A stretch of DNA of 64,000 bases from Gordonia sp. PDNC005 (lineage in GTDB: Bacteria; Actinomycetota; Actinomycetes; Mycobacteriales; Mycobacteriaceae). The notes beneath the pieces are model-generated. The model was not told the origin of the DNA, searched no databases, and saw only the letters and a program-made list of their open reading frames with translations. Positions 1,065 through 40,080 of the stretch are shown piece by piece (position 1 is the stretch's first letter; the number at the start of each line of letters is the position of its first letter). The DNA lies in NCBI RefSeq assembly GCF_016919385.1, contig NZ_CP070351.1, positions 248,001 to 312,000 of the forward strand, given 5' to 3'. The position numbers were made by a program, and so were the translations under genes.

Positions 1065-1922
1065 TCAGGACTCGAGCAGGAAGCCCATCACGGTGCGTTC
1101 GAATGCCGCTTTTGCCTCGATCATCGCCCAGTGTCCGCAGTTCGGGAACACGTGGAGCTCGGCGTCGGGGATGGTGCGCATCGGCACGAGGGCCATGTCG
1201 AGTGGGCTCACACGATCGTCTCGACCCCAGGTCAGAAGGGTCTTCGCCGACACTTTGTGCATCATCGCCCATTGCGGGGGCGCGTCCGAGGCGTTCATCG
1301 CCTGGATCATCGCGGCGAACGCGGCCTTGCCGTACATGCGGCGCGCGCTCTCCAGCGTGCCGGGTTCGGTCGCGAGCGCCCAGCGCTCCTCGATGAGCTG
1401 GTCCGTGACGACAGCTGGGTCGTAGACCATCGAATGCAGCCACTGGATCAGGCCCTCGCGGGTGGGGTTCTCAGTGAACTCCTGCAGGAGCTTGATGCCC
1501 TCACCGGGACCCGGGCTGAAGATGTTCCGCCCGATGCCGCCGATGGTGACGAGCCGTCGGATGCGGCCCGGGTTCGCGATGTCGTAGCCGATGCCGACGC
1601 CTCCGCCCATCGAATTGCCGACGACGTCGAACGTGTCCAACCCGAGCGCATCGACGAACGCGCCGAGCGCCGCTCCGGCGGTGACCATGGGATGGCCGCC
1701 CCAGTCGTCACTCACGCCGAAGCCGGGGAACTCGAGGACGAGGCACCGGAAGTGCTCGCCGAACAGGCCGAGGTTGCCGCGGTAGTTGCGCCAGCCGGTC
1801 ACGCCGGGGCCCGAGCCGTGCAGCAGCACGAGGGGAGGGCCGTCGCCGTACTCGTGATAGCGCAGCACACCCTGAGGCGTCTGCAGTTCACGAAGAGTGG
1901 CGTCGTAGTCGACGTCCGTCAT
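1065..1922 (-). CDS. hsaD: HsaD-type meta-cleavage product hydrolase
   Basis: A 285-residue alpha/beta hydrolase of the carbon-carbon bond hydrolase group. The oxyanion region is LLHGSGPG (residues 34-41) and the nucleophile Ser104 is in GNSMGG. Asp236 is in GRDDRV and His264 in NCGHW, with spacing as in mycobacterial HsaD. HsaD hydrolyses 4,9-DSHA, made by HsaC, to HIP (9,17-dioxo-1,2,3,4,10,19-hexanorandrostan-5-oic acid) and HHD. The RBS AGGAG precedes the ATG. It is the last gene of the operon that starts at 6364. It is the only HsaD-like gene in the window: the hsaA-hsaC-hsaB operon at 40-43 kb lacks one, so this copy may serve both sets. Confidence 0.88.
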   Translation of the reverse strand: MTDVDYDATLRELQTPQGVLRYHEYGDGPPLVLLHGSGPGVTGWRNYRGNLGLFGEHFRCLVLEFPGFGVSDDWGGHPMVTAGAALGAFVDALGLDTFDVVGNSMGGGVGIGYDIANPGRIRRLVTIGGIGRNIFSPGPGEGIKLLQEFTENPTREGLIQWLHSMVYDPAVVTDQLIEERWALATEPGTLESARRMYGKAAFAAMIQAMNASDAPPQWAMMHKVSAKTLLTWGRDDRVSPLDMALVPMRTIPDAELHVFPNCGHWAMIEAKAAFERTVMGFLLES

Positions 1923-1952: not shown

Positions 1953-2210
1953 TCAGCCGATGAGGCCGGGTACGGGCTCCCGACGGAGGTCGGCGGTGCC
2001 GAGCCTGCCGTCGCGGACGGCCCCCTCGATGGCGTCGCGCAAGGCGATGCACGTGGGGATGTTCTGAGTCTTCTCGCCGCGCGCCACCCGCTCTGCGAAC
2101 TCGTGGCATGCGTTCTGCGAATCGTCGAGCCACTGCACGCTCGTGTGCGTCGGGCTGAACTTCTCAACCAGGACCCTATTTGTGCAGGTCCCGCAACTTA
2201 TCTCGTGCAT
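1953..2210 (-). CDS. Small four-cysteine protein, paralog of the KshA-linked protein at 38452-38826
   Basis: An 85-residue soluble protein with RBS AGAAGG. Cys6 and Cys9 form a CxxC near the N-terminus; Cys35 and Cys54 follow. It aligns without gaps over the first 54 residues with the protein at 38452-38826: both share ...C-x2-C...SPxHTSVQW...C...PTC. The C-x2-C-x25-C-x18-C spacing would suit a Zn or Fe-S site, but this is not shown. No signal peptide or membrane segment is seen. It lies between the hsaD-like and ketosteroid isomerase genes. The family recalls the uncharacterised KstR-regulated neighbour of kshA in Mycobacterium (Rv3527), from memory only. Function unknown. Confidence 0.75.
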   Translation of the reverse strand: MHEISCGTCTNRVLVEKFSPTHTSVQWLDDSQNACHEFAERVARGEKTQNIPTCIALRDAIEGAVRDGRLGTADLRREPVPGLIG

Positions 2211-2625: not shown

Positions 2626-3135
2626 TCAGCCGAGTTCACGGACGGGATCGGTCCCGTCCCAGTGGCGGGCGGCGGCGACGCCCGCGGCGATCAGTTCGCG
2701 CATCATGCCGCCCTCGATGTACTCCACGACCAGACCCGGCTGGTCAGCGGATTCCAGGTAGGCGACGCGTGTCATCTCGTTGCCTGCGCGGAACAGGACG
2801 GACAGTCCGCTGCGTTCCGCGGCGGCGATGGAGGCGTCGAGGTCGTCGGTGATCCAGGCGACGTGGTGGAGCCCGAGCAGGGGAGACCCGTCGTCATCGG
2901 CGTACGGAGAAGGGGTCGACGACGTGATCTGCATCAGCTCGACCTGCAGCTCGCCGCTGTAGCCCATCGCGACGTTCATCGTCACTGTTGTGGTCTCACC
3001 GCGAAACTCGCCGTCGAGTGTGACGTTGCGGAACACTGTCCACGGTCCGATTCCGGTGGTCCGGATCCAGTGTTCGACGGCAGCGTCGAGATCGTCGACG
3101 ACGTATCCGTTCTGGACGATGTTTCCGGTGGTCAT
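2626..3135 (-). CDS. VOC (glyoxalase/bleomycin-resistance) family protein
   Basis: A 169-residue protein of the vicinal-oxygen-chelate fold. Two beta-alpha-beta-beta-beta modules are recognisable, one around VVDDLDAAVEHW and one around LHHVAWITDDLDAS. It resembles the glyoxalase_4 / methylmalonyl-CoA epimerase group rather than the extradiol dioxygenases. I chose the ATG at 3135 because it overlaps the stop of the upstream KstD-like gene (ATGA), indicating translational coupling. Its place between KstD and KSI genes suggests work on a steroid or a ring fragment. The reaction is unknown. Confidence 0.8.
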   Translation of the reverse strand: MTTGNIVQNGYVVDDLDAAVEHWIRTTGIGPWTVFRNVTLDGEFRGETTTVTMNVAMGYSGELQVELMQITSSTPSPYADDDGSPLLGLHHVAWITDDLDASIAAAERSGLSVLFRAGNEMTRVAYLESADQPGLVVEYIEGGMMRELIAAGVAAARHWDGTDPVRELG

Positions 3136-4808
3136 TCGGAGACCGCCGGCTGTGCGGTCCGCTGCTCGGCGGGCTTGTCGGCGGCGTGATTGGCTGCGAT
3201 CCACCCGAATGTCATCGCGGGTCCGATCGTGGCGCCGGGGCCCGCGTATTCGTTGCCCATCACCGCGGCGGATGTGTTGCCGACGGCGTACAGGCCGTCG
3301 ATGATCGAGCCGTCTGCACGCGTGACCTGTGCGTTCTCGTCATAGACGAGGCCACCCTTGGTGCCGAGATCCCCGACCCGCATGCGCATCGCGTAGTACG
3401 GCGCACGATCGACCGAGTCGAGCACGGGATGTGGGAGCGAGGGGTCGCCGTAGTACCGGTCGTACGCGCTGTCGCCCCGGCCGAAGTCGTCGTCGTGACC
3501 GCGGTCGGCGAGTTCGTTGATGCGGGTCACCTCGGCGCCCAGACCCTCCGGGTCGACGCCGATCGACTGTGCGAGTTCGGTGACGGTGTCGGCGGCGTGG
3601 ATGAGGCCGTCCTCGATCCACGACGCCGGGAACTTCTGGCCGGGCATGATGCCGCCGACCGGGTAGCGGTTCTTCGCCCGCGAGTCGAAGACGAACCACG
3701 CGTCGACGTGTCCGCCTTCGAGCTGCGCGTGAGTGAACGTGACGTACGGGGACGCCTCGTTGGTGAATCGACGGCCGGAGGTGTCGACGATCAGCGAGCG
3801 GGGGATCGACCTCTCGGCGACCAAGACCTGCATCACGCCGTTCGGAAGCTGCATCGACGGCATCCACCAGGCGTCGTCCATCAGATCGACTGCGGCGCCG
3901 ACCGCCTGCCCCGCGCGGATTCCGTCTCCGGTGTTGTCCTTCGACGCCGCACTGTAGTTCGGCCCGGCTCCGTCGGGGAGGTACTGATCGCGCATCTCCT
4001 GGTTGTGTTCAAACCCGCCGGTCGCGAGGATCACGCCACGACGTGCGGTGAGGGTTAGACGAGAGCCGTCGCGCGTCACCTCGACACCCGTGACGGCTCC
4101 GGTCTCATCGGTGACGAGAGACTCCATCGGAGTGCTCAACCACAAGGGGATGTGGGCGTCCTTGACCGCCAGCCGCAGTCGGGCCGCAAGCGCCCGACCG
4201 AGCGTCTCCATGCGGGCTTTGCGGGCTACGGCGATGACGGCGGCGACGCCGGTCTTCAGCGCCTGCCGCCTCGCCTTCCACGTGCGCGTCACCATGTTGA
4301 GCTGCACGAAATCCTTCTGCGTGATGTACAGCCCCGGGGGAGTGGCGAGGGCCGCCGAACGCAGTAGGTCGGCGTCCTCGCCGAGTGCCCGGATGTCGAA
4401 CGGCAGCGGCTCCACCGAACGACCTTCGGGCCTGCCGCCGGGATTCTCCGGGTGGTAGTCGCTATAGCCGGTGCACCACTGGAACTTCAGGTGCGGACTG
4501 CGGTCGAGGAAGGCCATCATCTTCGGGCCTTCGTCGATGAACGCGTCGAGATTCGCCGACGGGACGTGATCTCCGACGATGGAGTCGAGGTAGCCGCGCA
4601 CGCTCTCCCGGCTGTCGACGATGCCGATGCGCTCCAGTTGGGGGCTGTTCGGGATCCACACGCCGCCGCCCGACAGCGCCGTGCTGCCGCCGTAGACGTC
4701 GGCCTTCTCGATGATGAGCGTCGACAGACCCCGGTCCGCGGCGGCCAAGGCCGCAGTCAGTCCGCCCGCACCACTGCCGACGACGATGACGTCGTATTCG
4801 GTCTTCAT
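3132..4808 (-). CDS. 3-ketosteroid-delta1-dehydrogenase family flavoprotein (KstD3-like)
   Basis: A 558-residue FAD enzyme. The N-terminal dinucleotide motif is GSGAGG and a second FAD segment is STALSGGGVW. KstD active-site equivalents are present: Tyr in GYSDY, Tyr in NEASPY, and the Tyr-x3-Gly pair in EYAGPGATIG. These enzymes remove hydrogens from C1 and C2 of 3-ketosteroids, using FAD, to give 1,4-diene-3-ones. The start ATG overlaps the upstream stop (ATGA), and the next gene overlaps in the same way. It is about as close to the bona fide kstD at 32863-34560 as to the neighbouring 519-residue paralog. A 5-alpha-saturated substrate is possible but not readable here. Confidence 0.85.
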   Translation of the reverse strand: MKTEYDVIVVGSGAGGLTAALAAADRGLSTLIIEKADVYGGSTALSGGGVWIPNSPQLERIGIVDSRESVRGYLDSIVGDHVPSANLDAFIDEGPKMMAFLDRSPHLKFQWCTGYSDYHPENPGGRPEGRSVEPLPFDIRALGEDADLLRSAALATPPGLYITQKDFVQLNMVTRTWKARRQALKTGVAAVIAVARKARMETLGRALAARLRLAVKDAHIPLWLSTPMESLVTDETGAVTGVEVTRDGSRLTLTARRGVILATGGFEHNQEMRDQYLPDGAGPNYSAASKDNTGDGIRAGQAVGAAVDLMDDAWWMPSMQLPNGVMQVLVAERSIPRSLIVDTSGRRFTNEASPYVTFTHAQLEGGHVDAWFVFDSRAKNRYPVGGIMPGQKFPASWIEDGLIHAADTVTELAQSIGVDPEGLGAEVTRINELADRGHDDDFGRGDSAYDRYYGDPSLPHPVLDSVDRAPYYAMRMRVGDLGTKGGLVYDENAQVTRADGSIIDGLYAVGNTSAAVMGNEYAGPGATIGPAMTFGWIAANHAADKPAEQRTAQPAVSE

Positions 4809-6364
4809 GCCGAAACCTCCTGCTTCGCGTCGGCCATCGCACGAACGGCCAGGTGGCTGAACAGCATCGACGTGCCGATGGGGTTGCCGCCACCGGGGTA
4901 GACGGTGCCGCTGGGCGCGGCCATCGTGTTGCCCGCCGCGTACAGGCCCTTGATCGCGGAACCGTCGGCGCGGAGCACGTTGCCCGTGACGTCGGTTGTG
5001 AGCCCGCCCTTCGTCCCCAGGTCAGAGACGCCGAACGCCGCAGCGTGGAACGGCCCCTGGTCCACAGTCACCAGAGGCGGTTCGCCGCCGGAGAAGGCTC
5101 GGTCGTAGGCCTCGTCGCCGCGCCCGAAGTCGGGATCGACACCGGTCGGGACGTGGCCGTTGTACTTCTCGACGGTGGCGACGAGAGCATCAGCGGGGAC
5201 GCCGATCTTCGCGGCGAGCTCCTCAAGGGTGTCCGCCGTGTGCCACAGGCCCGCGTCGACGTACTCCTGGGTGGGTGAGAACGACACGTTCGGCGCCTTG
5301 CACGGCGGCACCACGCCCTCCTTGTCGTCGTAGATCATCCAGAACGGGAGCGTCACCTCGCCGGCGGCCATCTGATCGAGGACGTCGCGGCCGAGGCGAT
5401 CGTACGGCGCGGACTCGTTCACAAAACGTTCGCCGTTCTGGTTGACGAAGATGCCGCCGGTGAACCACAGCGCGAACGCCGACCGGCCGTCCGGGTGCGT
5501 CAGACCGGGTGACCACCACGCCTGATCCATGAGGTCGGTGTCTGCACCAGCGGCGATGCCGGCCCGGTGGGCCTGTCCGGTGTTGGTCGCCGGACCCATC
5601 GTGTCGCGGGCGACGCCGGGCACACCGTACTCGGCGCGCATGGTGTCGTTGCTCTCGAACCCGCCGGTCGCGAGCAGCACGCCGCGGCGAGCGCGGATCG
5701 CCTCACGCTTTCCGTCGCGCTCGACGATCACGCCGGTCACTTCGCCGTTCTCGGTCACGAGGTCGACGAGAGCCGTGTTGAGCTGCAGCGTCGCGTTGTG
5801 GCGGGGTTCGAGAGCCATCAGGAAGCGGGCGACCAGAGCGCGTCCGCCGATGTAGTAGTCGGGGGTCGGAGCCCCGAGCCGGTCGACATCGAGCGGCCCG
5901 CGCACCACGTCTTTGTAGGCAGGTGCATCGGAGACGGGGAACGGCGTCGGCATCGTGTGGCGCTGCCCGTCGAGGCGGGCTTTCGGCGCCTTGCCGAAGT
6001 AGTCGGGCCACGGCAGCATCTCGAACTTCAGGTTGTCGTCCTGTTCGAGGTAGTCGATGAGCGGCGCGCCGCCGCGGACGTAGGTCTCCTGAAGGTCGGC
6101 CGGGGTGCGGTCGCCGACCACCGATCGGTAGTAGGTGAGGGCGTCGTCGATCGTGTCGTCGGTTCCCGCCCGCATCAACACTGGATTGCACGGGAACCAC
6201 ACGCCTCCGCCTCCCGAGTAGGCGGTGGTTCCGCCGAATTTGTCGGACGCCTCCACCAGGAGGACCGACAGGCCCTCACGCGCGGCCGTGTAGGCGCCGC
6301 ACATGCCGCCGCCTCCCGATCCGGCCACGATCACGTCGTACTCCTGCGTCCAGTCCACGCTCAA
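4805..6364 (-). CDS. kstD: 3-ketosteroid-delta1-dehydrogenase (KstD1-like)
   Basis: A 519-residue flavoprotein resembling Rhodococcus KstD1 along its length. It has the FAD motif GSGGGG, catalytic-position Tyr in WPDYF, Tyr in NESAPY, and Tyr-x3-Gly in VYPGGGNPIG. It introduces the C1-C2 double bond in androstenedione-type steroids, the step that combines with KshA 9-alpha-hydroxylation to break ring B. The first codon is probably TTG at 6364: an AGGAG lies 7 nt upstream of it, while the in-frame GTG at 6358 is 13 nt away. It is the first gene of a six-gene minus-strand operon ending with the hsaD-like gene. The promoter region holds a tandem palindrome (6442-6475). Confidence 0.88.
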   Translation of the reverse strand: MSVDWTQEYDVIVAGSGGGGMCGAYTAAREGLSVLLVEASDKFGGTTAYSGGGGVWFPCNPVLMRAGTDDTIDDALTYYRSVVGDRTPADLQETYVRGGAPLIDYLEQDDNLKFEMLPWPDYFGKAPKARLDGQRHTMPTPFPVSDAPAYKDVVRGPLDVDRLGAPTPDYYIGGRALVARFLMALEPRHNATLQLNTALVDLVTENGEVTGVIVERDGKREAIRARRGVLLATGGFESNDTMRAEYGVPGVARDTMGPATNTGQAHRAGIAAGADTDLMDQAWWSPGLTHPDGRSAFALWFTGGIFVNQNGERFVNESAPYDRLGRDVLDQMAAGEVTLPFWMIYDDKEGVVPPCKAPNVSFSPTQEYVDAGLWHTADTLEELAAKIGVPADALVATVEKYNGHVPTGVDPDFGRGDEAYDRAFSGGEPPLVTVDQGPFHAAAFGVSDLGTKGGLTTDVTGNVLRADGSAIKGLYAAGNTMAAPSGTVYPGGGNPIGTSMLFSHLAVRAMADAKQEVSA

Positions 6365-6441
6365 CGGTCCACTCCTGACTCATGACGAAAATGTCGTTCG
6401 ACGCCGACGTTAAGCCGCACGGCTACACCGGAGGCCGCGGA

Positions 6442-6475
6442 TTCCCGGTGACCGGGACGTACCGGTGAGCGGGAA
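6442..6475. promoter_or_regulatory. Tandem 17-bp palindromic operator candidate between kstD and BVMO genes
   Basis: Two adjoining 17-mers, TTCCCGGTGACCGGGAC (6442-6458) and GTACCGGTGAGCGGGAA (6459-6475), fit an inverted pattern TTCCCG-n5-CGGGAA. A perfect-arm copy is upstream of the kshA-type gene at 13546-13562. The divergent intergenic position suits control of both the minus-strand dehydrogenase operon and the plus-strand monooxygenase. It is not a KstR box. The cognate regulator is unknown; the IclR gene at 9079-9879 is a nearby candidate. Confidence 0.55.
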
Positions 6476-6558
6476 CGACGCTGTCGTCTCGGCGGTGAGG
6501 GTCCTAGCGTCGTGGCTGTTGATCGGGGAAGTCCCGGCACAGTGACGAGAGGCGCAGC

Positions 6559-8169
6559 GTGAGTGAGACTGTGGAGTCCGTAGACGTCGACGTGGTGGTT
6601 GTCGGTGCAGGTTTCGGTGGGCTGTACGCTCTGCACCGCCTGCGTTCGGACGGCAAGAGCGTCCGGCTCTTCGAGGCGGGCGGCGGCATCGGCGGCGTCT
6701 GGTACTGGAACCGTTACCCCGGCGCACGCTGCGACGTCGAGAGCGTCGACTATTCGTACTCGTTCGACGAGGACCTCCAGCAGGAGTGGGACTGGAGTGA
6801 GAAGTACGCGACCCAGCCCGAGATCCTCCGATACGTCGATCACGTCGCGACACGTTTTGACCTGTACCGCGATATCAGCCTCAACACCAGGGTGGAGCAG
6901 ATCGCCCTCGATGAGGACACGCTGACGTGGACGGTGGAGACCGACACCGGTGAGACTGTGACCGCTCGGTGGGTCGTCCTGGCACTCGGGCCGCTGTCGA
7001 ACTCGAACATCCCCGCCATCGACGGGATCAACGACTTCGCCGGGCCTGTTCTGCACACGGGACGCTGGCCGCACGAAGAAGTCGACTTCACCGGGCAGCG
7101 TGTCGGTGTCATCGGAACCGGATCGTCCGGAATACAGTCGATTCCCGAGATCGCCAAACAGGCCGATCACCTCACGGTGTTCCAGCGCACCGCAAACTAC
7201 AGCATCCCCGCCGGGAACCGCCCGCTGTCGGACGCGGATCGCGCCGCGCAGAAGGCCGACTACGCGGAGCGGCGTCGACTGTCGATGGCCAGCGGCGGCG
7301 GCTCGCCCCACATGGCGTTCCCCAAGAACACGCTCGAGGCCACCGATCAGGAGCGGCAGTCCGCGTACGAGGAACGTTGGGAGTTGGGCGGCGTGCTGTT
7401 CAGCAAGACGTTCCCCGACCAGCTGACGTCCCTCGAAGCCAACGGTCCCGCCCGCGAGTTCTGGGAGTCGAAGGTCCGCGCGGTGATCGACGACCCCGAT
7501 GTCGCGGCCGACCTGATCCCGTCGGATCATCCGATCGGCACCAAGCGGATCTGCACCGACAGCGGCTACTTCGAGACGTACAACCGCGACAACGTCGAAC
7601 TGGTGAACCTGCGGAAGGCCCCCATCGAACGGATCGACGCGACGGGTGTGGTCACCGCCGACGGACGGCATCACGACCTCGATGCGCTCGTCCTTGCAAC
7701 CGGCTTCGACGCGATGACCGGCTCGGTCGCCAAGATCAACATCGTCGGACGCGGCGGTCGGACCTTGAACGACGAGTGGGCTGCCGGGCCACGCACATAT
7801 CTCGGGCTCGGCATCTCCGGGTTCCCGAACCTGTTCAACCTGACCGGGCCCGGCAGTCCGTCGGTGTTGGCGAACATGGTGCTGCACTCGGAACTGCACG
7901 TCGACTGGATCTCCGACGCGATCGCTCATGTCGACGAGGCCGGTGCCGCGGGCTTCGAAGCCCGCGCCGAGGCGGTCGACGAGTGGGTCGCCGAGTGCAG
8001 GCGTCGCGCCGAGGGGTCGCTCATGGTGCAGGCCAATTCCTGGTATCTCGGGGCCAACATCCCCGGTCGTCCGCGAGTGTTCATGCCGTTCGTCGGCGGG
8101 TTCGGAGCGTACGGCGACATCATCGCGAAAGTCGCAGCAAACGACTACGACGGCTTCCAACTCCTCTGA
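6559..8169 (+). CDS. Flavin-dependent Baeyer-Villiger monooxygenase
   Basis: A 536-residue class B flavoprotein. Residues 16-21 (GAGFGG) bind FAD and 186-191 (GTGSSG) form the NADPH Rossmann motif. Residues 160-171 match the Baeyer-Villiger fingerprint FxGxxxHxxxWP (FAGPVLHTGRWP). Such enzymes insert oxygen next to a ketone using NADPH and O2, making esters or lactones; the cyclohexanone/steroid monooxygenase branch is the nearest. Start GTG with upstream GAGAGG. It diverges from the KstD operon and is followed by a hairpin and a PadR gene. A steroid ketone substrate is inferred from context only. Confidence 0.87.
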   Translation: MSETVESVDVDVVVVGAGFGGLYALHRLRSDGKSVRLFEAGGGIGGVWYWNRYPGARCDVESVDYSYSFDEDLQQEWDWSEKYATQPEILRYVDHVATRFDLYRDISLNTRVEQIALDEDTLTWTVETDTGETVTARWVVLALGPLSNSNIPAIDGINDFAGPVLHTGRWPHEEVDFTGQRVGVIGTGSSGIQSIPEIAKQADHLTVFQRTANYSIPAGNRPLSDADRAAQKADYAERRRLSMASGGGSPHMAFPKNTLEATDQERQSAYEERWELGGVLFSKTFPDQLTSLEANGPAREFWESKVRAVIDDPDVAADLIPSDHPIGTKRICTDSGYFETYNRDNVELVNLRKAPIERIDATGVVTADGRHHDLDALVLATGFDAMTGSVAKINIVGRGGRTLNDEWAAGPRTYLGLGISGFPNLFNLTGPGSPSVLANMVLHSELHVDWISDAIAHVDEAGAAGFEARAEAVDEWVAECRRRAEGSLMVQANSWYLGANIPGRPRVFMPFVGGFGAYGDIIAKVAANDYDGFQLL

Positions 8170-11074: not shown

Positions 11075-12253
11075 TCAGATCATCGAGCGGAGGTTGTCTG
11101 GAACCTCCAGGCCCATCGAGGCCAGGGCGGACGCGTGGTAGGGGGTGCTCGGCACGTGAATCGCGTGGTTCAGACCCGCGTGCACATCGCGCCAGAAGCG
11201 CTGGAGCGGCTTGTCCATGCGGAGTGCGTTGCCCCCGGATCGCGCGTAGATCTGGTCGACGGCCATCACTGCGCGCCAGGCGGCCCGGATCTGAGTGCGT
11301 CGACCTGCTGCGCGATCGGCGAAGGTGATCTCTTCGCCTGCCTCGACCATGTCGAAGATCCGGTCCACGTTCGCCAACAGTTCCTGGCGGGCGGCGTTGA
11401 TGTCGGCCGCCGCCTCGCCGATGGCGAAGAGGTTGTACGGATCGTCCTTGACCGCGACTCCCTGCGCACCGACACGGTCGCGCTGGTAGTCGAGGTGGCA
11501 GGCGAGGGCGCCTTCGGCGATGCCGATGACGGCGGAGGTGATGCCGAGCGGGAACATCGACGACCACGGCATCTTGAACAGGGTCTTCGTCATGCCCGCC
11601 TGAGCCTGCGCGGTTCCGTCGATGACGTGGTCGCCGTTCATCACGCGGTATGACGGGACGAACGCGTCCTTGACGATGATGTCTTTGGAGCCGGTGCCCT
11701 TGAGGCCGACGACGTTCCACGAGTCCTCGACGATCGTGTAGTCGCTGCGCGGCAGGATCATGTGCAGCATGGTCGGCGGCAGCGCCATGTCGCCCTCGGG
11801 AGTGCCGAGCATCGCTCCGAGGAAGATCCAGTCGCAATGGTCGGTGCCGGAGCTGAACTGCCACCGACCGTTGAAGATGTAGCCGCCGTCGACCGGGCGT
11901 GCGATGCCGGTCGGCGCGTACGGCGAGGCGATCCAGGTGTTGTCGTCCTCACCCCACACCTCCTCCTGCACCTTGGGGTCGGCGAACGCCATCTGCCACG
12001 GGTGGACGCCGACGATGCCGCACACCCATCCGGTGGCGCCGTCGAGGCTCGCGGCCTTCATGACGGTCTCGGCGAACTCGCGCGGATGTGCTTCGAGGCC
12101 GCCGTACTGTGCGGGCGCGAGCAGCTTCATCACGCCGGATGCCTTCAGCTTCTTCGCGGTCTCGTCGGGCAGCTGGCCGAGTTCTTCGGCCTCGGGGCCC
12201 TGATCGCGGATCTGATCGGCGATCGCTTCGATGTTCTCTATGGGTCGGGTCAT
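11075..12253 (-). CDS. HsaA-type flavin-dependent monooxygenase, oxygenase component (second copy)
   Basis: A 392-residue member of the acyl-CoA-dehydrogenase-fold group D monooxygenases. It shares with the copy at 40129-41313 the blocks GATGWVCGIVGVH, WNVVGLKGTGSKD and PLQRFWRDVHAG. HsaA hydroxylates 3-HSA at C4 using reduced FMN supplied by HsaB. The ATG at 12253 has an AGGAA just upstream and gives the usual family length. It sits between the kshA- and hsaC-type genes. No flavin reductase is in this operon; the only hsaB in the window is at 42354-42929. Confidence 0.87.
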   Translation of the reverse strand: MTRPIENIEAIADQIRDQGPEAEELGQLPDETAKKLKASGVMKLLAPAQYGGLEAHPREFAETVMKAASLDGATGWVCGIVGVHPWQMAFADPKVQEEVWGEDDNTWIASPYAPTGIARPVDGGYIFNGRWQFSSGTDHCDWIFLGAMLGTPEGDMALPPTMLHMILPRSDYTIVEDSWNVVGLKGTGSKDIIVKDAFVPSYRVMNGDHVIDGTAQAQAGMTKTLFKMPWSSMFPLGITSAVIGIAEGALACHLDYQRDRVGAQGVAVKDDPYNLFAIGEAAADINAARQELLANVDRIFDMVEAGEEITFADRAAGRRTQIRAAWRAVMAVDQIYARSGGNALRMDKPLQRFWRDVHAGLNHAIHVPSTPYHASALASMGLEVPDNLRSMI

Positions 12254-12299
12254 GATTCCTCGTTCGGATGGAGTGTGAAGAGAGGGAGTGGGGGATCTG

Positions 12300-13454
12300 T
12301 CAGGAGACGGTGTTGACGACACGGCCGGCTGCGATGTTCTCGGCCACTTCCTTCTCCCAGCTCTCGACCGCACGGGTGGTGTCGATCTCGAATTCGAAGC
12401 GGTTGGTCATGTCGTCGGTGATGTCCTCGACGTCGACGTAGAACTGGTTGTACCAACGGCGCATCTGGTAGACGGGGCCGTCCTCCTCCGACAGCAGCGG
12501 GTTGTCGATCGGCGCCTTGTCGCGCCAGATCTCCACATCCTGCTCGAAGCCCACTTTCACGCCTTGGGAGAATTGCGCGGCCATGGCTTCGGCGTCCTCG
12601 GGCGCCATTCCCGCGGGCTTCTTGACGCTCGCGCCGTACATGAGGACGAACGAATTGTTGTCGATCGGGTAGTGGCAGTTGATGAGATTCGTTTCGATCA
12701 CCATGCCGTTGGCGTAGCTGCGGAGCACGTCGATCATGTACGACGGCCCGTAGTAGTACGCCTCGGATTCGAGACGGGAGTCGGGATCGTCGTAGTTGGT
12801 GCCCACCGAGACGTCGTCGCGGGGTACCGAGTGCATGATCTGGCCTGCGACGTGACCTTCGAAGATGTTCTTGAAGAACTTCGGGAACGAGTAGTGGACG
12901 TAGAAGAAGTGAGCCATGTCGACGTTGTTGTCGACGATCTCTCGGCAGTGCGAACCCTCGACGACGATCGAGTTCCAGTCCCAGTCGGTCCACTCGTCGG
13001 TGCCGTAGCCCTCGATGACCGGAATCGTGACGTCGTCAGTCGGCTTGGACCCCTGGGGGTCGTTCCATACGAAGAGCTGGCCGTTGCGTTCAAGCGTCGG
13101 CCACGATCGGGTCTTTGCGACCGGCGGCACGCGGCGTGCGTACGGGATGCCGGTGCAGCGGCCGTTGCCGCCCCACCTCCAGTCGTGGAACGGGCAGGCG
13201 ATCGAGTCGCCCTTCACCTGTCCTTTCGCGAGGTTTCCGCCCATGTGACGGCAGTAGGCGTCGAGCACCTTCAGCGACCCGTCGCTCTCGGTCTGGAAAA
13301 CGACGAGCTGGGTGCCGAACGCCTTGATCTGGTGCGGCTTCCCGTCTCGGAAGTCCTTCAGCAGGCCGAGGCAGTGCCAGCCGCGCGCGAATCGAGTGGG
13401 GGCTCCGGCGGATTCAATCGACCGGAACTCTTCGTCCTGGGTGGGTGCAGACAT
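12300..13454 (-). CDS. KshA-type 3-ketosteroid 9alpha-hydroxylase oxygenase (second copy)
   Basis: A 384-residue Rieske oxygenase. The [2Fe-2S] ligands are Cys68/His70 (CRH) and Cys87/His90 (CPFH). The mononuclear iron is bound by His182, His187 (AHFFYVH) and Asp306 (EQDVEIW). These positions match mycobacterial KshA closely. KshA with the reductase KshB hydroxylates C9, and combined with delta1-dehydrogenation this opens ring B. First gene of the operon ending at 10141. Paralog at 38826-39992. No kshB is present in the window. Confidence 0.88.
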   Translation of the reverse strand: MSAPTQDEEFRSIESAGAPTRFARGWHCLGLLKDFRDGKPHQIKAFGTQLVVFQTESDGSLKVLDAYCRHMGGNLAKGQVKGDSIACPFHDWRWGGNGRCTGIPYARRVPPVAKTRSWPTLERNGQLFVWNDPQGSKPTDDVTIPVIEGYGTDEWTDWDWNSIVVEGSHCREIVDNNVDMAHFFYVHYSFPKFFKNIFEGHVAGQIMHSVPRDDVSVGTNYDDPDSRLESEAYYYGPSYMIDVLRSYANGMVIETNLINCHYPIDNNSFVLMYGASVKKPAGMAPEDAEAMAAQFSQGVKVGFEQDVEIWRDKAPIDNPLLSEEDGPVYQMRRWYNQFYVDVEDITDDMTNRFEFEIDTTRAVESWEKEVAENIAAGRVVNTVS

Positions 13455-14304: not shown

Positions 14305-14318
14305 TAGAACAGGTTCTA
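14305..14318. promoter_or_regulatory. KstR box, kstR/fadE34 divergent promoter
   Basis: TAGAACAGGTTCTA matches the KstR consensus TnnAACnnGTTnnA exactly and extends to an 18-bp near-perfect palindrome (14303-14320). Placed between the two divergent starts, it should give KstR autoregulation and fadE34 control. Confidence 0.85.
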
Positions 14319-16543: not shown

Positions 16544-16557
16544 TGGAACACGTTCTA
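16544..16557. promoter_or_regulatory. KstR box upstream of chsE1-chsE2
   Basis: TGGAACACGTTCTA matches TnnAACnnGTTnnA exactly. It lies 22 bp before the start codon of the fused dehydrogenase, positioned to block the promoter of the side-chain operon. Confidence 0.82.
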
Positions 16558-20249: not shown

Positions 20250-21424
20250 TGAGCAGGACTCTCTCCGGTAAGGCTTCGATCGCGGGCATCGGAGCCACCG
20301 ACTTCTCGAAGAACTCCGGTCGCAGTGAGCTGCGGCTGGCGGCCGAAGCCATCAATGCCGCATTGGCCGACGCCGGCCTGACCGCCGACGACGTCGACGG
20401 CCTGGTCACTTTCACGATGGACACCAACACCGAGATCGCCGTCGCTCGCGCGGTGGGGATCCCGGAGCTCAAGTACTTCTCCCGCATCCACTACGGAGGC
20501 GGTGCGGCGTGCTCCACGGTCCAGCAGGCGGCGATGGCGGTGGCAACCGGCGTGTGCGACGTCGCGGTGGCCTACCGCGCGTTCAATGAGCGGTCGGGAA
20601 ACAGGTTCGGCCAGGTCAGTGCTGCTGTCGCCAACCAGGAGAACTCCTCGGGCACCGACAACGCTTTCTCGTACCCGCACGGTCTGTCGACGCCCGCGGC
20701 GTTCGTCGCGATGACGGCTCAGCGGTACATGCACGAGTACGGAGCGACGAGTGAGGACTTCGGCCGCGTCGCCGTCGTCGACCGCAAGCACGCAGCGGTG
20801 AACCCGAACGCGTTCTTCTACGGCAAGCCCATCACCCTGGAGGACCATCAGGCGTCGCGGTACATCGCCGAGCCCCTCCATCTGCTCGACTGCTGCCAGG
20901 AGTCGGACGGCGGTGTTGCGATCGTCGTCGTGTCCCCTGAGCGCGCCAAAGACCTCAGACGCAAGCCGGTGTCGATTGCGGGCGCGGCGTCCGGCAGTGG
21001 CCGCGACCAGTTCATCATGACCAGTTACTACCGCGACGATCTGCCCGCTCTGGAGGAGATGGGCCTTGTCGGACAGCAGTTGTGGGCGCAGTCCGGACTC
21101 CGGCCTGACGACATGGACATGGCGGTTCTGTACGACCACTTCACCCCGTACGCGCTGATCCAGCTCGAGGAGCTCGGATTCTGCGGGCGCGGTGAGGCCA
21201 AGGACTTCGTCCGTGAACCCGGAGCCCTCGAAGTCGGCGGCCGACTGCCCTTGAACACACACGGCGGTCAGCTCGGTGAGGCCTACATCCACGGGATGAA
21301 CGGCATCGCCGAGGCCGTCCGCCAGTTGCGAGGCGACTCCGTCAACCAGGTCGAGGGCGCATCGCAGGTCCTCGTCACCGCAGGCACGGGTGTTCCGACG
21401 TCCGGCCTCGTCCTCACCGCTTGA
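20249..21424 (+). CDS. ltp2: Ltp2, thiolase-fold steroid side-chain aldolase
   Basis: A 391-residue thiolase-superfamily protein of the SCP-x/Ltp2 branch (M. tuberculosis Ltp2 is 386). Typical blocks are GGGAACSTVQQAAMAVATGVCDVA, DCCQESDGGVAIVVVSPERA and LPLNTHGGQLGEAYIHGMNGIAEAVRQ. Ltp2 with the DUF35 part of ChsH2 performs the retro-aldol cleavage that releases propionyl-CoA and androstenedione. An ATG at 20249 shares one base with the chsH1 stop, and GGAGG lies just upstream. Gene order chsE-chsH2-chsH1-ltp2 supports the call. Confidence 0.88.
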   Translation: MSRTLSGKASIAGIGATDFSKNSGRSELRLAAEAINAALADAGLTADDVDGLVTFTMDTNTEIAVARAVGIPELKYFSRIHYGGGAACSTVQQAAMAVATGVCDVAVAYRAFNERSGNRFGQVSAAVANQENSSGTDNAFSYPHGLSTPAAFVAMTAQRYMHEYGATSEDFGRVAVVDRKHAAVNPNAFFYGKPITLEDHQASRYIAEPLHLLDCCQESDGGVAIVVVSPERAKDLRRKPVSIAGAASGSGRDQFIMTSYYRDDLPALEEMGLVGQQLWAQSGLRPDDMDMAVLYDHFTPYALIQLEELGFCGRGEAKDFVREPGALEVGGRLPLNTHGGQLGEAYIHGMNGIAEAVRQLRGDSVNQVEGASQVLVTAGTGVPTSGLVLTA

Positions 21425-34601: not shown

Positions 34602-34615
34602 TAGAACACGTTTCA
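34602..34615. promoter_or_regulatory. KstR box upstream of kstD
   Basis: TAGAACACGTTTCA matches TnnAACnnGTTnnA exactly, 42 bp upstream of the kstD ATG. Expected to repress the kstD-hsd4B operon until a steroid-CoA ligand appears. Confidence 0.82.
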
Positions 34616-38451: not shown

Positions 38452-38826
38452 TCACCAATACCCGTCGGGATCGGTGATCGGCGACTCCTTGGGAATGATC
38501 CCCTCGGAAACGCCGTGGTCGATGCTGGCCGACATGCGCGGGCATGTCGGCAGCATCGCGGGGTTGCCGCCCTCGGCGATGATCGTGGAGATCTCCGAGC
38601 ATCGAGCACGGGCGGCGTCGTTCCACTGGACGCTCGTGTGATGCGGGCTCGTCTTCTTCACGAGCACACACGCGTGACAGGTCCGGCACTCGATCTCCGA
38701 CATCCCGCCTGCAAGATAGTGCTTGCGGTCGCGAGCGGTCGCGTCGGCGATCGACGACAGCCGGGCGGGGTCGTCGGTGTAGTCCGGCGCCTTCGCCCAG
38801 CCGCCGCCGGGTGCCACGGCGGTCAT
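38452..38826 (-). CDS. Small four-cysteine protein coupled to kshA
   Basis: A 124-residue protein: a 41-residue polar N-terminal extension, then a core that aligns gap-free with the protein at 1953-2210. Core cysteines follow C-x2-C-x25-C-x18-C, with shared SPxHTSVQW and PTC. One extra Cys follows the CxxC. Its ATG shares a base with the kshA stop (TGATG), so it is translationally coupled to the Rieske oxygenase. A role in assembling, metallating or feeding electrons to KshA is an attractive guess. An internal Met before SEIEC could be an alternative start. Function unknown. Confidence 0.8.
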   Translation of the reverse strand: MTAVAPGGGWAKAPDYTDDPARLSSIADATARDRKHYLAGGMSEIECRTCHACVLVKKTSPHHTSVQWNDAARARCSEISTIIAEGGNPAMLPTCPRMSASIDHGVSEGIIPKESPITDPDGYW

Positions 38827-39992
38827 CAGACCGACGCGCCCTTGTCGGCTTCGGCGGCCTCGGCTGCCGCCTTCTCGCGCGCCTGGATCTCGAGGTTCTC
38901 CTGAACCTCGATGTTCCAGTTCTCCAAGGCCTTCTCGGTGTCGATCTCGTACTCGAAGCGGCCGACCATCTCGTCGGTCACATCGTCGACGTCGACGTAG
39001 TACTGCTCGTACCAGCGGCGCAGCTGGTACACCGGGCCGTCCTCTTCGACGAGCAGCGGGTTGTCGATGCGGGTCTTGCGCTTCCAGATCTCGACGTCCT
39101 GCATGAAGCCGACCTCAACACCCTGCGTGATCTTCTTCGCCATCTTCGCGCCCTGCTCCGGCGAGAATCCCTCGGGGATCTTCGCCATCACGCCGAACAT
39201 GAGGACGAACGAGTTCGAGTCGATCGGGTAGTGGCAGTTCGTGAGGATGGTCTCGACTGCGTACTCGCCGTAGTACTGGACCATCGGGTTCAGCATGTAA
39301 GACGGTCCGTAGTACGCGGCGATCGACTCGAGGCGGGTGTCGCCGTACGCCGTCGACAACGCGATGTCGGGGCGGCCGTGCGAGTTCATGTACTGCGCGG
39401 CGGTCTGCCCTTCGAAGACGTTCTTGAAGTAGTCCGGCAGGGCGTAGTGCACGTAGAAGAAGTGCGCCATGTCGACCACGTTGTCGATGATCTCGCGGCA
39501 GTTGGAGCCCTCGATGACCAGCTTGTTCCAGGTCCAGCTCGTCCACTGGCCGTCGCCGAATTCGGCGAGCTCGGGGATGATCACGTCCTCCGGCGGCGGA
39601 TTGCCCTCGGGATCGTTGTAGACGAACACCTGGCCGTTGCGGATCATGGTCGGCCAGGTGCGGGTCTTGGCGAGCTTCGGGTGACGCTTGGCGTAGGGGA
39701 CGCCTGCGCAGCGGCCCTTGCCGTTCCACTGCCATCCGTGGAAGGGGCATGCGATGTTGTCGCCGCGAACCTTGCCCTGTGACAGATCGGCGCCCATGTG
39801 GCGGCAGTACGCGTCGAGGCACTTGACCTCGCCGTTGGTGTCGGCCCACACGACGAGCTTGGTGCCGAAGATCTCCAGCGAGTGGGGCTTGCCGTCGGTG
39901 TACTCGTCGACGAGGCCGATGCAGTGCCAGCCGCGGGCGAAGCGGGTGGGCGGGGTGCCGGTGTCGATCTCGCGGATTGCGGTGTCAGTCAT
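38826..39992 (-). CDS. kshA: KshA, 3-ketosteroid 9alpha-hydroxylase oxygenase
   Basis: A 388-residue Rieske oxygenase. [2Fe-2S] ligands are Cys63/His65 and Cys82/His85. Catalytic iron ligands are His177, His182 and Asp299. A C-terminal Ala/Glu/Lys-rich tail follows. It hydroxylates C9 of androstenedione or the 1,4-diene, causing ring B to open. I chose the ATG at 39992 for its GAGGAG RBS. Two KstR boxes lie in the divergent region shared with hsaA. It overlaps the small cysteine protein gene downstream. It differs enough from the copy at 12300-13454 to suggest different steroid preferences. Confidence 0.92.
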   Translation of the reverse strand: MTDTAIREIDTGTPPTRFARGWHCIGLVDEYTDGKPHSLEIFGTKLVVWADTNGEVKCLDAYCRHMGADLSQGKVRGDNIACPFHGWQWNGKGRCAGVPYAKRHPKLAKTRTWPTMIRNGQVFVYNDPEGNPPPEDVIIPELAEFGDGQWTSWTWNKLVIEGSNCREIIDNVVDMAHFFYVHYALPDYFKNVFEGQTAAQYMNSHGRPDIALSTAYGDTRLESIAAYYGPSYMLNPMVQYYGEYAVETILTNCHYPIDSNSFVLMFGVMAKIPEGFSPEQGAKMAKKITQGVEVGFMQDVEIWKRKTRIDNPLLVEEDGPVYQLRRWYEQYYVDVDDVTDEMVGRFEYEIDTEKALENWNIEVQENLEIQAREKAAAEAAEADKGASV

Positions 39993-40044: not shown

Positions 40045-40080
40045 TAGAACATGTTCCACTCAAAACGAGAACGTGTTCTA
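40045..40080. promoter_or_regulatory. Two KstR boxes in the kshA/hsaA divergent promoter
   Basis: TAGAACATGTTCCA (40045-40058) fits TnnAACnnGTTnnA exactly. GAGAACGTGTTCTA (40067-40080) fits except the first base. One box per direction is a natural arrangement for divergent KstR-controlled operons. Confidence 0.85.

Follow-up and report, generated by a model that had tools for sequence, protein, structure and literature searches.

A family of small four-cysteine proteins accompanies KshA in actinobacteria and is a probable accessory component of 3-ketosteroid 9alpha-hydroxylase

The window analysed here, a stretch of 64,000 nucleotides from Gordonia sp. PDNC005 (NZ_CP070351.1, positions 248,001 to 312,000), contains two genes for small proteins with four conserved cysteines, one in each of two steroid gene blocks. 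The family to which both proteins belong is found in every sampled genome of the order with a strong match to KshA, the oxygenase of 3-ketosteroid 9alpha-hydroxylase (KSH), an enzyme described as two-component. Because its genes mostly lie adjacent to kshA, sometimes between kshA and the reductase gene kshB, and because the four cysteines are near-invariant, we regard the family as a probable accessory protein dedicated to KSH, with a predicted metal site made of the four cysteines (Cys4). From the comparison of sequences we would put the probability of this reading at roughly 0.85. The two genes of the window are the following:

2210..1953, minus strand: P0003, the short-form four-Cys protein, 85 amino acids, with Cys 6, 9, 35 and 54, flanked by SnoaL-like and hsaD-like genes.
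38826..38452, minus strand: P0004, the long-form four-Cys protein, 124 amino acids, with Cys 47, 50, 76 and 95; residues 1-41 are a conserved extension.

The two proteins align in BLASTP over 68 residues without a gap, 29 of which are identical (43%, E 7e-17), and the aligned core of P0004 comprises residue 42 onward. The initial annotation of this DNA had claimed a gap-free alignment of 54 residues, which therefore holds over a greater length, and it had correctly described the motifs that both proteins share: the cysteines are spaced C-x2-C-x25-C-x18-C in the same register, SPTHTSVQW in P0003 corresponds to SPHHTSVQW in P0004 (SPxHTSVQW), and PTC is found in both. Its assignment of one gene to each steroid block also stands, and each of the two kshA sets of the window owns one family gene, P0004 being adjacent to kshA and P0003 lying about 10 kb from the second copy, kshA2. 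The one-base overlap with kshA that it had noted is correct for P0004, whose ATG has one base in common with the TGA of kshA (TGATG at 38826), but does not extend to P0003, which has no adjacent Rieske gene. Equimolar synthesis of P0004 and KshA, which it had read from this overlap, would be one possible consequence. The Gordonia genome (4.26 Mb, a single contig) has P0003 and P0004 as its two family copies; two further matches, with E 0.07 and 0.26, were taken as chance.

The family itself is not a chance resemblance, because single-sequence searches returned 79 and 13 database relatives at E <= 0.001 and a profile search returned 837. Of 268 distinct sequences, 266 have all four cysteines. 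The two exceptions are the metagenomic P0095, in which Cys6 is replaced by Arg and also Trp27 by Leu (this sequence is part of alignment A1 and left out of A3), and P0083, a fragment that ends ahead of Cys35. Similarly conserved is a T-x-x-Q-W motif, with Thr23 in 268/268 and Gln26 and Trp27 each in 267/268 sequences. Position 22 is occupied by His in 247 sequences, by Gln in 20 and by Tyr in one, and His22 as a fixed ligand was rejected on account of these 21 replacements. Of the 265 sequences that fit the longer pattern, 248 have C-x2-C as their first cysteine pair and 17 have C-x1-C.

Neither Pfam nor NCBIfam gave a match over the cut-off for P0003 or P0004, and no precomputed Pfam domain occurs among the relatives listed (the best 120 of 837 in the profile search). 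Searches of PDB by sequence and by profile returned only chance matches, namely a keratin, an Ig chain and a designed protein, and Pfam searches with 72 members gave weak matches only, with a best E of 0.0027 (25 of the 32 weak families are listed). A weak local likeness exists between P0003 and the 'Putative Fe-S cluster' (iron-sulphur cluster) domain PF04060, in which 15 residues match at E 0.082 with 13.1 bits, below the cut-off of 23 bits; this domain matches 8 of the 72 members at E <= 1 (best E 0.061), and its C-x2-C-x4-C is missing in the family (0/268). Some members bear the label 'Ferredoxin' in UniRef or NCBI, which we rejected as evidence since the origin of the label is obscure and none of the searched ferredoxin motifs is present. 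No paper assigning a function to the family was found in the open-licence literature searched, and the earlier statement that no function has been assigned is thus borne out in the libraries and papers searched.

Our survey of 298 genomes of the same order reveals a close match between the family and KshA. The family occurs in 100 and KshA_C (E <= 1e-20) in 104 of these genomes, and the 100 genomes with the family are exactly the 100 genomes with a strong KshA (E 4e-80 or better). No genome possesses the family without KshA, and the four with KshA only have a weak KshA_C match (E 5e-21 to 4e-33). Presence and absence also vary jointly within genera: both genes are found in G160 and neither in G067 of genus g4, and the same contrast separates G224 from G015 in g22 and G158 from G016 in g23. 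In a sample of the phylum (346 genomes), the ten genomes with the family are the ten with a strong KshA, and in nine further genomes the KshA_C match is weak, with E 4e-41 at best; the ten positives also sit in the order sample, so that the phylum sample contributes negatives only. Members beyond the order comprise Actinomadura and Nocardioides loci and Streptomyces proteins.

The gene neighbourhoods also connect the two genes. A listed KshA adjoins 124 of the 147 listed family copies, 123 of which lie on the same strand, 86-369 bases past the end of KshA_C, and one just upstream (G052 is counted twice among the 147 copies, its contig ends repeating one locus). Such an adjacent pair is present among the matches listed in 93 of the 100 genomes. 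Adjacency was not judged in G009, G044, G061, G103 and G137, which have no KshA among the matches listed; the pair of the Gordonia genome itself (G000) is missed in this count, its kshA likewise not being among them; and in G128 the family and KshA copies lie on different contigs. Both marks of a KSH component, genetic linkage to and co-occurrence with kshA, were therefore found (124/147 copies and 100/100 genomes). The initial annotation had made its proposal, a metal site or Fe-S carrier that would serve KshA assembly or electron delivery, depend on three outcomes, namely a profile search without a known characterised family over the cut-off, conservation of the four cysteines in homologs and linkage to Rieske oxygenases in other genomes, none of which turned out against it.

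Two peptide patterns gave 142 loci, of which the best 80 make up the set of named loci, with Lentzea and Nocardia strains strongly represented. In 22 of these 80 the order is kshA-family-kshB. In 6 more kshA lies directly upstream, in 8 (mostly Prescottella) directly downstream, and in 18 elsewhere in the fetched stretch. A Rieske motif lies within the same 3.2-kb stretch in 22 of 30 copies from 12 named genomes. On a Tsukamurella plasmid, as annotated, kstD, kshA (4767-5951), the family gene (5956-6294) and kshB (6291-7379) follow each other, and the family gene overlaps kshB by 4 bases. Lentzea, Umezawaea and Amycolatopsis likewise have kshA-family-kshB, with overlaps of 4 bases between kshA and the family gene and 8 bases between the family gene and kshB; gene borders in these three taxa, as in the window, come from a simple custom gene caller, which shortened P0003 at its 5' end. 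The Nocardioides simplex tags for kshA (KR76_14170) and kshB (KR76_14160), given in the available part of PMC7593942, leave space for one gene between them. Two loci may be mentioned separately: plasmid pRHL1 of R. jostii RHA1 (L173) has a family member at 20766-21044, about 7.7 kb downstream of KshA at 12001-13113, and in L164 the family copy behind a Rieske gene continues in frame and without a stop into an SDR frame, a possible fusion, the corresponding genes being separate in L111.

The family exists in two forms, and the chain lengths lead one to expect masses of roughly 9-16 kDa. The short form starts directly at the first cysteine segment. In the long form, the one linked to kshA, this segment is preceded by a conserved N-terminal extension, WAKAPD...TxRDRxHYLxGG, which is missing from the short form. 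Mycobacterial-type copies (genus code g2, presumably Mycobacterium; Mycolicibacter sinensis, L152, is one with a species name) carry in addition PDVDRLARSML and a linker, which contains 2-6 His and 3-8 Asp or Glu in 18/18 aligned sequences; a nineteenth sequence, L017, shows the same features and was left out of the 18 by one differing motif residue. This His/Asp/Glu-rich linker lies between two conserved segments in loci L013-L034 and L152, and was seen neither in the Gordonia copies nor in the short form. Change per codon position is 0.29/0.24/0.50 in the mycobacterial-type arm and 0.21/0.17/0.46 in the core; third positions vary most in the arm, which is therefore translated.

A number of observations weigh against a function dedicated to KSH. 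According to the available part of a KSH review (PMC4064121), KshA and KshB need no further partner to convert androstenedione in Escherichia coli and are also active as purified proteins. Plasmid records of Sphingobium, Burkholderia, Caballeronia and Cupriavidus carry a KshA relative of 43-46% identity and no family member at E <= 1 on the record, other replicons lying outside the search, and the same holds for plasmids of R. qingshengii and Prescottella sp. R16, which have a KshA relative and no family member on the record, the chromosomes lying outside the search. In many genomes KshA_C matches outnumber family copies. Family copies that do not adjoin a kshA are often separated from one by 4-13 kb on the same contig, and for two copies the nearest listed KshA is 51 kb and 1.9 Mb off. 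Of the named loci, 17/80 have kstD, not kshA, directly upstream, and in 9/80 none of the neighbours named here lies within the stretch that was fetched. The AlphaFold model is only moderate (pLDDT, its predicted confidence score, 77). Finally, operon co-loss alone could yield part of the co-occurrence, and the raw counts ignore kinship.

What a KSH accessory protein would do can be proposed with much less assurance. At somewhat under even odds, we tentatively rank first the upkeep of the KshA metal centres, that is their loading, protection or repair, ahead of electron transfer and then of a structural zinc role, because upkeep would agree both with a protein that can be dispensed with in vitro and with a mycobacterial arm that looks suited to metal binding. 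The four cysteines would hold one metal ion (zinc or iron) or an Fe-S cluster, and the TxxQW face would dock on KshA. Loading, protection or repair of the mononuclear iron or the Rieske cluster of KshA would then fall to the bound metal or to the protein as such. In E. coli, general Fe-S machinery would stand in for the protein, and in the mycobacterial forms the N-terminal arm, rich in His and Asp, may be a metal-collecting tail. The available part of PMC4064121 calls the KshA metal centre labile, and reports that R. rhodochrous KshA kept its activity only if purified with KshB.

Alternatively, the family might be a third redox component, a small protein with a new fold and an iron-sulphur centre through which electrons would flow from KshB to KshA, so that KSH would be three-component in vivo. 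To this possibility we give perhaps one chance in a few. The gene order oxygenase-small protein-reductase is that of the three-component Rieske oxygenases (Batie class II/III), whose small ferredoxins are likewise small cysteine proteins coded between oxygenase and reductase, and the near-invariant cysteines would suit such a role. The first KSH preparation, from Nocardia sp. (Strijewski 1982), contained two iron-sulphur proteins, as cited in the available part of PMC4064121. Unlike the class II/III ferredoxins, however, the family has neither the Rieske ligands C-x-H...C-x2-H, nor the plant-type [2Fe-2S] Fer2 motif C-x4-C-x2-C...C, nor the bacterial [4Fe-4S] ferredoxin motif C-x2-C-x2-C-x3-C (0/268 sequences each), and KSH works without it in vitro. 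An obligatory electron carrier is unlikely because KshA and KshB alone are active, because KshB has its own Fer2 domain, besides NAD-binding domains, in the four operons tested, and because the four proteobacterial KshA records are without the family.

Slightly less probable still is a structural zinc protein with a treble-clef-like knuckle, which would bind KshA or KshB as a small subunit, for regulation or stabilisation, and perform no redox or iron-delivery chemistry. The C-x2-C-G knuckle of the family is weakly matched by zinc-ribbon and treble-clef Pfam families (16/72 and 15/72 members, best E 0.003 and 0.01), and the replaceable His22 agrees with such a role. As in those knuckles, helices stand behind the other two cysteines, Cys 35 and Cys 54 directly preceding them in the AlphaFold model. 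Unlike in zinc ribbons and treble clefs, there is no second C-x2-C knuckle of the rubredoxin or zinc-ribbon kind (0/268 sequences), and no zinc family exceeds the cut-off for P0003 or P0004. That the family serves KstD instead of KshA, for example as an electron acceptor of the flavin, is very improbable: kstD stands directly upstream in the 17 loci mentioned above and near P0003, and kstD-kshA-family operons exist, but most listed copies lie directly beside kshA, and KstD (NF005882, E <= 1e-150, a threshold that differs from that for KshA) is a looser fit as main partner, sharing 93 genomes with the family and leaving 11 KstD-only and 7 family-only genomes, as against 100/100 for KshA.

Returning to the accessory protein of KSH, we lean slightly towards the view that actinobacterial KSH is a three-protein system in vivo, in which the four-cysteine protein would be a new kind of metal protein outside the listed families, reserved for one Rieske oxygenase, either an iron or Fe-S supply and repair factor or the missing carrier, and which would explain the three-component enzyme of 1982. 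If this is true, work on KSH in vitro and in heterologous hosts has omitted one component, and the second iron-sulphur protein of 1982 gains a candidate gene. It might also account for the instability of one KshA when it was isolated in the absence of KshB. To our knowledge, a dedicated helper for the metal centres of a Rieske oxygenase would furthermore be new to this enzyme class.

KSH is used for the production of 9-hydroxyandrostenedione, and in M. tuberculosis kshA or kshB deletion mutants fail on cholesterol (available part of PMC6429209). The gene beside kshA (Rv3526) in this species, Rv3527, is called a 'hypothetical protein' in the portions of PMC6429209 and PMC2905415 at hand, and the former portion gives no biochemical role for it. 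Like P0004, Rv3527 stands beside kshA by gene numbering, and mycobacterial-type genomes carry the family right after kshA; its orthology to the family is proposed from synteny alone. A word search of PMC8228715 found no mention of a third component, a ferredoxin or an operon, and one of PMC3182942 no mention of kshA, Rv3526 or Rv3527.

The other features of the two steroid gene blocks in the window are listed here:

38826..39992, minus strand: kshA, oxygenase of KSH (KshA_C PF19298, E 2e-84; Rieske PF00355, E 6e-24).
40045..40058, no strand: KstR-type palindrome TnnAACnnGTTnnA, a pattern match in the divergent region between kshA and hsaA, upstream of kshA-P0004.
12300..13454, minus strand: kshA2, the second kshA, followed by hsaA-like and hsaC-like genes, in the steroid block of P0003 and about 10 kb off.
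3132..4808, minus strand: kstD-type flavoprotein gene, upstream of P0003 with two small genes in between.
1065..1922, minus strand: HsaD-like alpha/beta hydrolase gene, directly downstream of P0003, under the HsaD equivalog cut-off.

The block of P0003 thus has the order hsaD-like, P0003, SnoaL, VOC, kstD and kstD-like, with the hsaC-like gene, the hsaA-like gene and kshA2 farther away. The start of kshA, MTDTAIREI, was picked from codon use. The palindrome at 40045..40058 was matched to what we take to be the KstR consensus, and more 14-mers fitting a KstR-type palindrome are found at 12439-12452, which lies inside kshA2, and at 14305-14318, 16544-16557 and 34602-34615. Elsewhere in the Gordonia genome, far from the window, there is one clear KshB relative (G000:C1:3023036-3024037, 55% identity), the other four matches being weak, so that two strong KshA copies stand against a single clear KshB.
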